Below, one piece after another: positions 1,633 through 64,000 of a DNA stretch of 64,000 bases. The position numbers were made by a program, and so were the translations under genes. The stretch is from Geodermatophilus siccatus. GTDB taxonomy: Bacteria; Actinomycetota; Actinomycetes; Mycobacteriales; Geodermatophilaceae. The stretch lies in NCBI RefSeq assembly GCF_900103785.1, contig NZ_FNHE01000003.1, positions 372,001 through 436,000 on the forward strand. Reading direction: 5' to 3'. Position 1 is the stretch's first letter, and each line of letters begins with the position of its first letter. The notes below the pieces were generated by a model, which was not told the origin of the DNA, made no database searches, and saw only the letters and a program-made list of their open reading frames with translations.

Positions 1633-1662
1633 CCGGGCGGCCCCCCGCAGGGTCCCGCCGCC

Positions 1663-1716
1663 GGCCCCGTCCAGGGGCCCGCCCCGAGCCTGCGAGGGGT
1701 GGGGAGGACGGGGTCC
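1663..1716 (-). repeat. Structured intergenic repeat, family 1, copy A
   Basis: Arms GGCCCCGTCC (1663-1672) and GGACGGGGTCC (1706-1716) form a stem around a loop of exactly 33 nt (1673-1705) with the family core CCCGCC...GAGCC...GCGA...GGTGGG. CCCGCC and GGTGGG within the loop can also pair. The copy lies in a convergent intergenic gap, 26 bp past the stop of the minus-strand gene 1743-2099. The other copies are at 52990, 56955 and 63481. It probably acts as a terminator or mRNA 3'-end structure. Confidence 0.7.
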
Positions 1717-1742
1717 TTCTCTGGTGGGGGGCCGGGGGTCCT

Positions 1743-52944: not shown

Positions 52945-52989
52945 TGCCCGATCCTGTCAGCCGGCCTGGTCCCGGGTCCCGCGACGGGT

Positions 52990-53044
52990 GACCCTTCTGC
53001 AGGGTCCCGCCGCGAGCCCGCGAGCGGTGGGGGGCAGAAGGGTC
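52990..53044 (-). repeat. Structured intergenic repeat, family 1, copy B
   Basis: Arms GACCCTTCTGC (52990-53000) and GCAGAAGGGTC (53034-53044) are a perfect 11-bp stem. The loop is 33 nt with the core CCCGCC, GAGCC and GGTGGG. It starts 5 bp past the stop of the minus-strand oxidoreductase gene. Its stem differs from copy A but still pairs perfectly. Confidence 0.8.
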
Positions 53045-53049
53045 CTCTC

Positions 53050-54063
53050 TCAGGCCGTCACGTCGACCAGCACCTTGCCGACGGCGCCGTCCTCCACCGC
53101 GCGGTGCGCCTGCGCGGTCTCGGCCAGCGGGAAGACGTGCAGCGGCAGGCCGGCGTCCTCGCCGACCCGGACGGCGCCGTCGAGCACGGCGGCGTTGACG
53201 TCCTCGACGGCGATCGCCTTGGCGCGCTCGGGCTCGGTGTAGACGAGGACGAACTGCCAGCGCGCGTTGGGGACCATCTGCGCGCGGACGGGCACGGTCA
53301 CCTCCGCGCCGCCGTCGTCGGCGTACATCGCCACGGCCCCGTGCAGGCCGATGACCTGCGCGTCGACGGCGGCGTTGGTGGCGGCGGAGACCTCGACGAT
53401 CGCGTCCACGCCCTTCGGGGCGACCTTGCGCACCTCGGCGACGACGTCCTGCTCGCGGTAGTCGACGACGTGCGAGGCGCCGGCCGCGGCGGCCAGCTGT
53501 GCCTTGTGCGGGCTGCTGACCGTGGCGATCACCGTGGCGTCGGCCCAGCGGGCCAGCTGGATCGCGGCGTTGCCGACCGCGCCGGCCCCGCCCTGCACGA
53601 GGACGGTGTGGCCGGTCAGCGCCCCGGGGCCGAGCCGGTCGGGCAGCGACTCGGCCACGGTCAGGCAGCGGTGCGCGGTGAGGAACGGGATGCCCAGCGC
53701 CGCGCCCAGCTCGAACGCGGGCCCGGCGCCGAGCAGCACCACCTGCCGCGCGGGGACGACGGTGTACTCGGCCGCCGTCCCGTGCGGGCGCTGCCAGGCC
53801 GCCTCCCAGACCCACACCCGCTCGCCGACCAGCACCGGGTCGACGCCCTCCCCGACGGCGTCGACGGTGCCGGAGCCGTCCTGGTCGGGCACCTGGCCGT
53901 CGGGGCCGGGTGGGTTGGTGCGCCGGGACTTCCAGTCGGTCGGGTTGACCCCGGAGAAGGCCAGCCGGACCCGCACCTCACCCGGGCCGGGCTCGGGGGT
54001 GGGGCGCTCGACCAGCTGCAGGACGTCGGGGTCGCCGTTCTCGGTGTAGACGATGGCTCGCAC
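53050..54063 (-). CDS. NADPH:quinone oxidoreductase-like zinc-independent MDR protein
   Basis: A 337-residue medium-chain reductase. The catalytic domain begins VRAIVYTENGDPDVLQLVER and carries FSGVNPTDWKSRR, the Rossmann domain has VLVQGGAGAVGNAAIQLARW. No structural zinc Cys cluster is seen. The protein probably reduces quinones or enones with NADPH. GTG at 54063 is the start, since the open frame upstream is not coding-like. It is a single minus-strand gene between two hairpin-bounded units. Confidence 0.88.
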   Translation of the reverse strand: MRAIVYTENGDPDVLQLVERPTPEPGPGEVRVRLAFSGVNPTDWKSRRTNPPGPDGQVPDQDGSGTVDAVGEGVDPVLVGERVWVWEAAWQRPHGTAAEYTVVPARQVVLLGAGPAFELGAALGIPFLTAHRCLTVAESLPDRLGPGALTGHTVLVQGGAGAVGNAAIQLARWADATVIATVSSPHKAQLAAAAGASHVVDYREQDVVAEVRKVAPKGVDAIVEVSAATNAAVDAQVIGLHGAVAMYADDGGAEVTVPVRAQMVPNARWQFVLVYTEPERAKAIAVEDVNAAVLDGAVRVGEDAGLPLHVFPLAETAQAHRAVEDGAVGKVLVDVTA

Positions 54064-56954: not shown

Positions 56955-57010
56955 GGCCTCCTTCCAGGGACCCGCCCTGTGCCTGCGAGGGGTGTGGAGG
57001 AAGGGGGGCC
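56955..57010 (-). repeat. Structured intergenic repeat, family 1, copy C
   Basis: Arms GGCCTCCTTCC (56955-56965) and GGAAGGGGGGCC (56999-57010) pair with one bulge and one G-U. The loop is 33 nt (56966-56998) with the family core. It lies between the convergent TupA-like and fbiC stops, 4 bp past the fbiC stop. Confidence 0.75.
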
Positions 57011-63353: not shown

Positions 63354-63412
63354 GTCCCTACAGCACCGCCCGGAGCCCAGATGTGACACCCGTCGAGGAT
63401 GCCTGCCCATGG

Positions 63413-63480
63413 CCCCCTGCAGAGTCCCGCCGCGAGCCCGGTGACGTACGGGAACGGGGCCACCCTCCAAGGGACCCGCC
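63413..63480. repeat. Degenerate family 1 fragment
   Basis: CTGCAGAGTCCCGCCGCGAGCCCG repeats the loop core of family 1 (as in copy B), without its right arm. It may be the decayed remainder of a second copy next to copy D. Confidence 0.35.
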
Positions 63481-63534
63481 GGCCCCGTCCCGGGTCCCGC
63501 CCTGAGCCGGCGAAGGGTGGGGAGGACGGGGTCC
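63481..63534 (-). repeat. Structured intergenic repeat, family 1, copy D
   Basis: Arms GGCCCCGTCC (63481-63490) and GGACGGGGTCC (63524-63534), loop exactly 33 nt. The stem equals that of copy A. It lies 33 bp past the stop of the flavin reductase (minus). Confidence 0.75.
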
Positions 63535-63567
63535 TTCTCCGGGGCGTGGGGGAAGGGTGGTCCTCGC

Positions 63568-64000
63568 TCAGGCCCGTCCGGCGGGCTGCCCGGTCGCGTC
63601 GACGTAGCGGCCCCGCAGCCGCACCAGCGGAGCGCCGCCCGGGGCCAGCACGGGGACGCCGGTGACCTCCAGCAGCGCCAGCACGTGGTCGCCGGCCTCG
63701 ACCAGCCGCTCCAGCCGGCAGTCCAGTGCCGCCAGACCGCCCTCGAGCAGGATCGCCCCGCTCCCCTCGGCGCGCCGCCAGGGCACCGACTCGAGCAGGT
63801 GGCGGGCGCTGGGCCGCCCGGCCGAGGAGAACCGGCTGGCCACGATGGCGTGCTCGGCGGCCAGCACGGTCAGCCCGCAGCTGCCCACCTCCTCGAGCAC
63901 CTCGGCCGGGTAGCCGCCCGCGGAGAGGCCGACGGCGACCAGCGGCGGCTGCGCCGACACGCTCATCACCGAGGAGACCGTGGTGCCGACGTCGTCGATG
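63568..64000 (-). CDS. Flavin reductase family protein, C-terminal part (N-terminus outside the window)
   Basis: The window ends inside a flavin-reductase-like (DIM6/NTAB) gene on the minus strand. Readable sequence starts DDVGTTVSSVMSVSAQPPLV, the typical start of the FMN-binding split barrel, and continues through AVGLSAGGYPAEVLEEVGSC, AEHAIVASRFSSAG and the C-terminal LLEVTGVPVLAPGG. Relatives reduce flavin for a partner monooxygenase. The first ~35-45 residues are missing. GTG or ATG at 63966-63969 is internal, not the start. Confidence 0.78.
   Translation of the reverse strand, partial: IDDVGTTVSSVMSVSAQPPLVAVGLSAGGYPAEVLEEVGSCGLTVLAAEHAIVASRFSSAGRPSARHLLESVPWRRAEGSGAILLEGGLAALDCRLERLVEAGDHVLALLEVTGVPVLAPGGAPLVRLRGRYVDATGQPAGRA

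Follow-up and report, generated by a model that had tools for sequence, protein, structure and literature searches.

The window, the 64,000-nt stretch of the Geodermatophilus siccatus genome analysed here, carries four copies of a hairpin repeat that recurs at hundreds of places in this genome and is confined to the family Geodermatophilaceae. Its outer stems differ between copies and stay paired, and the copies lie behind stop codons in a fixed orientation. This covarying, stop-linked repeat family is real and apparently previously undescribed. We tentatively read it as a REP-like dispersed repeat, specific to its family and kept behind stops, which would form a hairpin in the mRNA that marks the end of the coding region and would not be an efficient terminator.

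Four window copies of a two-stem element

All four hairpins named in the original prediction are present where it placed them and fold as it claimed (MFE -28 to -39 kcal/mol, + strand). The core pattern matches 4 times in the window, compared to 0.1 expected in shuffles, and a covariance model on the four copies gives E values of 1e-17 to 1e-10. The 33-nt loop that the copies were said to share is not a single loop. It consists, in order, of a 5-nt spacer (AGGGT), an inner stem of 8 bp (CCCGCCnn/nnGGTGGG) that encloses the 10-nt loop GAGCNNGCGA, and a second spacer of 2 nt. A variable outer stem, 8-9 bp long with a terminal GG/CC and a bulged T, closes the hairpin. The three outer stems had been read correctly, but the first and fourth copies have the same one, so the window holds three stems and not four.

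As predicted, every copy is on the + strand (as are all features given below for the window), 4-33 nt beyond a minus-strand stop. The copy edges lie 26, 5, 4 and 33 nt from the stops at 1743, 53050, 57015 and 63568, and the larger distances of the first and fourth copies arise because each of them sits within the loop of an older, now broken copy. The first (1663..1719; stem GGCCCCGTCC/GGACGGGGTCC; covariance model R1 84.5 bits, E 1.3e-17; also seen in the fold) sits between the left half (GGCCCCCCGCAGGGTCCCGCCGCC, 1639..1662) and the right half (TGGTGGGGGGCCGGGGGTCC, 1722..1741) of its host, the latter ending one base before the stop (TCA 1743-1745). Both halves were read from the sequence, and the nesting was seen by comparison with a simple ortholog elsewhere. 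The fourth (63481..63537; again GGCCCCGTCC/GGACGGGGTCC; 81.8 bits, E 5.6e-17) is nested as well, its host being an older element that belongs to another subtype. A conserved 5′ tail (GGTGACGTACGGGAACGG) and the left half of this host (GGCCACCCTCCAAGGGACCCGCC) occupy 63440..63480, and its right half, likewise read from the sequence (CGGGGCGTGGGGGAAGGGTGGTCC, 63540..63563), ends 4 nt short of the stop codon (TCA 63568-63570). A left half that belongs to an even older element (GGCCCCCTGCAGAGTCCCGCCGCGAGCCC, 63411..63439) gives a weak covariance-model match at 63411-63464 (18.2 bits). The tail consensus, GGTGACGTGCTGGAACGGCC, occurs at 35 places at ≤1 mismatch, 5′ of the hairpin in a subset of copies. 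It often comes directly after an older copy's left half (e.g., C14:467222 and C20:683262).

The second copy (52990..53044; stem GACCCTTCTGC/GCAGAAGGGTC; 61.9 bits, E 2.7e-12) lies 5 nt from the stop of an ADH-family gene, beside a half-copy of an older element (GGCCTGGTCCCGGGTCCCGCGACGGGT, 52963..52989, from sequence reading). The third (56955..57010; stem GGCCTCCTTCC/GGAAGGGGGGCC; 54.7 bits, E 1.4e-10) is full and partly decayed, and stands where two genes converge, with the stop of an FO-synthase-like gene 4 nt away. At the orthologous site, the element is present in G013, and other hairpins are found in G025 and G003.

Hundreds of copies in one bacterial family

The genome contains 234 copies at ≤2 mismatches (125 forward and 109 reverse), with none in a reversed-pattern control. 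Covariance model R1 identifies 99 in contig C20 (697 kb), which extrapolates to roughly 700 per genome. Further copies, which a genome search was expected to reveal, are thus abundant, and the finding is larger than first noted.

The Geodermatophilaceae are desert soil bacteria. The repeat is carried by all 25 of 25 same-genus genomes and by most other genera of the family; in other families of the order, the covariance model found no copies and the pattern gave one stray match in total. The genome-collection matches listed belong to Geodermatophilus, Blastococcus, Modestobacter, Trujillonella, other Geodermatophilaceae and one record labelled unverified Bacillus. A search of the window with Rfam at the gathering score matched only two tRNAs and no family for the repeat, and no description of it was found in our partial coverage of the literature on Geodermatophilaceae genomes and on repeats. 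For annotation, the repeat accounts for hundreds of unexplained intergenic hairpins per genome across the family and calls for caution with terminator calls.

Placement behind stop codons of the genome

We tiled 2.05 Mb of the genome and surveyed 165 copies, with genes defined by a simple codon-usage script and not by a standard gene caller. The copies are not scattered at random inside genes: 154/165 are intergenic. They keep one orientation to the stop codon: in 128/154, the forward strand is aimed at the stop of a gene on the opposite strand (77 in tandem and 51 in convergent settings). Of these 128, 91 are ≤8 nt from the stop and 24 are 13-36 nt away, the second group including many nested copies. 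The script's motif edge falls inside the foot of the stem; by direct reading, the GGACC foot begins ~4-6 nt past the stop. The sequence in between is usually purine-rich and SD-like (GAAGGA/GGAGGA). Such a stretch follows 79/110 stops with a copy compared to 100/905 without, and it belongs to the element. Stops with a copy also more often have a C before them.

Among stops with ≥60 nt of room, 55/372 convergent and 86/642 tandem ones bear a copy (about 13-15%), so occupancy is similar whichever way the next gene points, and the restriction to convergent gaps that would be expected of simple terminators is not seen. Two other accounts of the placement were rejected. CTGA is not a mere insertion target, since ~1185 other intergenic CTGA sites, which are as common, are scarcely used. 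Nor does the element bring its own stop codon, as copies distant from stops have no conserved TCA.

Matched arms and strand bias

The stems covary strongly, as had been claimed, and do so at one orthologous site as well. Alignment A1 has 97.5% of its cells paired, compared to 87.5% when shuffled and 51-62% when slid, and double changes occur at 9/18 pairs, counts that come from related copies and hence not from independent events. With the register fixed on one pair, several outer positions lie above every shuffle (e.g., 74/83 against a shuffled mean of 37.7). The ilvB-ilvN junction offers better evidence of covariation than counts over related copies. Eight species have a hairpin at this orthologous site, most with different, matched arms (CCCCCTCTC/GAGAGGGGG, CCCCCGTTC/GAACGGGGG, CCCCCCTTC/GAAGGGGGG and CCCCGCTTC/GAAGCGGGG are examples); the arms are fully paired over nine positions in six species, over eight in one and more weakly in one. 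Most of the eight hairpins have the loop TCGCTCCGCTC, which is also found at other loci, so that common descent at this site is likely and not certain. In G005, the same junction (L378) holds three elements in a row within a 262-nt intercistronic gap, the first two near-identical, an array that looks like local tandem growth.

Covariation, fixed orientation to the stop and non-random placement together make a constraint on the hairpin well supported. The arms may have changed by compensatory mutation, by palindrome correction or by replacement from another copy, and palindrome correction during replication could hold arms matched without selection.

The forward strand, opposite to the mRNA, folds better in 143/165 copies (mean -35.1 vs -31.1 kcal/mol). 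Wobble pairs in the outer stem, read on that strand, are 44 G.U against 19 A.C (p 0.002, among copies that are not independent), and a conserved inner pair is G.U there (GU 25, GC 8, AU 6) and usually an A.C mismatch on the sense strand. The fold and wobble bias point to the opposite strand as RNA, or to single-stranded DNA. They are hard to reconcile with an RNA role on the sense strand alone and leave room for a DNA-level or opposing-strand one. Where the original prediction moved from covariation to RNA-level function, the constraint on the hairpin therefore holds up; the RNA level is not proven, one pairing test favouring the strand opposite to the mRNA.

Turnover of copies between species

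At the second window site, the genome has the block 52961-53049, absent in G025, between two copies of TCAG (left 52957..52960; right 53050-53053, which contains the stop codon). Three relatives (G025, G009 and G003) show the empty site CCTGTCAGGCCG, reading CTGACAGG without the element. Of the target-site duplication that would be expected of a MITE, this TCAG is the one clean case; nested insertions lose the loop instead. Other sites differ between species in having a simple copy or one nested in a loop, differing hairpins in place, or short stubs. Present or absent between species, nested and replaced in place, the copies are mobile or fast-evolving.

When 110 aligned gene ends were compared with G025, 11 were occupied in both genomes, 9 in the own genome only, 15 in G025 only and 75 in neither, a correlation (odds ratio 6.1, p 7.5e-4) that indicates sites partly conserved and partly turned over. 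The copy between rpsB and tsf (L032:19590-19655, C20:39610) has 57-59 nt identical to copies at other loci in G004, G005 and G017, which suggests that its subtype (inner stem CTC/GAG) may have been recently active.

Mobilisation by a RAYT/IS200 enzyme was rejected, as no Y1 (IS200/IS605-type) transposase gene (PF01797) was found in any of 28 family genomes (the own genome and 27 relatives), with control genomes positive. The repeat would spread or be renewed by some other route, and the absence of a RAYT enzyme makes the spread of "orphan" REPs a testable question.

Could the repeat be selfish or neutral DNA, with a hairpin serving its own propagation (by way of single-stranded DNA, or of template switching where forks stall) and a place behind stops that is merely the least harmful? 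The insertion polymorphism with its TCAG duplication, the loop nesting, wholesale replacement and deletion stubs, and the wobble pairs biased to a single strand would all follow. However, the narrow 4-6 nt lock to the stop, the avoidance of the ~1185 other CTGA sites and the occupancy correlated between species speak against this account, and we consider it possible but rather doubtful.

Copies inside gene clusters and ahead of tRNA-Trp

Sense-oriented copies stand between ilvB and ilvN, ilvN and ilvC, rpsB and tsf, tkt and tal, and nusG and rplK, with the next start codon ~30-42 nt on. The protein identities were tested, and co-transcription was inferred from established gene order. Their presence inside co-directional gene clusters speaks against efficient sense-strand termination.

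A near-perfect copy lies 4 nt before a tRNA-Trp gene and on the same strand (L061:14656-14720, C20:614656-614720, minus strand), downstream of a promoter-like TACACT (CGTACACT) and in the orientation opposite to that of the cluster copies. A similar copy stands in this leader in five other species whose sequence could be read and is missing from several others, which points to a relatively recent insertion. Only one exact tRNA-Trp site was found in the own genome, so this is apparently its only gene for that tRNA. If the promoter reading is right, this copy argues against efficient forward-strand termination. The terminator role first proposed for the hairpin is weakened by both sets of copies.

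An intrinsic terminator of opposing or antisense transcripts, in which the GC hairpin and TCCTTCYTCA on the forward strand end at the neighbour's stop and act at the gene border, would nevertheless explain why the T-rich side always faces the stop, and it agrees with the better folding of the forward strand, its excess of G.U over A.C and the conserved inner G.U pair. The T tract is weak, however, copies are equally frequent at tandem and convergent ends, and the tRNA-Trp copy has this same orientation; we regard this alternative as unlikely.

Like Rho-independent terminators, the repeat is a GC hairpin at gene 3′ ends; unlike them, it has a sequence-conserved core and no proper sense-strand U tract, and it occurs inside co-directional clusters. 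On the sense strand, no U tract follows the hairpin: GGCC follows, with no shared T-rich flank, and GTTCCAGC is seen in a minority. Intrinsic terminators without a U tract are common in high-GC actinobacteria. None of the tRNA gene ends inspected, too few for a general 3′-end test, carries a copy, and other perfect hairpins are found there. An ordinary sense-strand terminator of the upstream gene lacking a U tract, which the strong hairpin directly past the stop and the different palindromes of other species at one convergent gene end would suit, is improbable given the copies within clusters and the other hairpins used at tRNA gene ends.

Likeness to REP repeats and a possible mRNA role

REP repeats are the nearest known kind. 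Those of the GTAG and CGTC superfamilies are likewise short intergenic palindromes that number in the hundreds per genome, lie mainly downstream of genes, have covarying stems and G.T pairs, and are restricted to a family or genus (PMC3733652); the 234 pattern matches and 154/165 intergenic copies found here show the same high-copy, extragenic character. The present element differs in its body of 57 nt, which has two stems and an internal loop of 5/2 nt, compared to 20-40 bp in REPs, and in having no terminal GTAG. Flank logos show no unpaired GTAG or CGTC tag beside the stem; a minority of copies have the tail GGTGACGTGCTGGAAC, in which GACG, reading CGTC on the complementary strand, lies ~10 nt away from the stem. 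The text of that REP survey names no Geodermatophilus or Blastococcus (PMC3733652). RAYT-mobilised REPs and BIMEs (PMC2817692) are similarly mobile-looking, high in copy number and species-specific in abundance; here, there is no Y1_Tnp gene, and copies nest in loops instead of forming regular alternating arrays. Since tag and RAYT enzyme are both missing, we do not file the repeat as a REP member.

In E. coli, REPs under 16 nt from a stop are described as lowering translation, with ribosome stalling proposed (summarised in PMC12306157). These resemble the present repeat in being hairpins a few nucleotides behind a stop, but, according to that paper, only about 11% of E. coli REPs lie within 15 nt of one; stop proximity, a minority feature there, is the rule here, where any such effect would hold by analogy.

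For the proposed role as a hairpin in mRNA, transcription of the copies and every further step are inferred. The mRNA of the upstream gene would carry a strong GC hairpin with its base starting ~4-6 nt after the stop, a structural mark that would block 3′ exonucleases and movement past the stop, and so could affect the stability of the mRNA, make ribosomes pause or uncouple the gene from the next one. We count in its favour the copy number, family restriction, covariation, ilvB-ilvN site and stop lock, together with the similar tandem and convergent rates, the cluster-internal copies and the E. coli REP precedent. Against it, we count the sense-strand A.C mismatch, the better folding of the opposite strand and possible palindrome correction. 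3′-end protection or protein binding, also proposed originally, may be possible. We think it unlikely, though worth stating, that this is a new mobile hairpin without a Y1 transposase that targets stops and its own loops and renews both arms, and whose shared loop and individual stems on hundreds of mRNAs are recognised by a host protein or the terminating ribosome. A repeat so dense, fixed to stops and matched in its arms amounts to a natural experiment on how hairpins behind stops bear on translation, mRNA decay and gene coupling.

Other repeats at gene ends

Other palindromes occur at gene ends of the genus, of a CGAGATCGGCGATCTCG type and a GTCGTGCTCTGCCCAC...GTGGGCAGAGCACGAC type, at the orthologs of 56955-57010 in G025 and G003 (L281, L285) and at the ADH site in L261. 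They are probably further repeat families. In G017 (C313, L251), directly repeated GGCTCACCCCCGCGGGCGCGGGGAGCAC-like units with differing spacers, probably a CRISPR array, follow the ADH stop; they lie between the genes for ADH and glycerate kinase, which are ~16 kb apart there.
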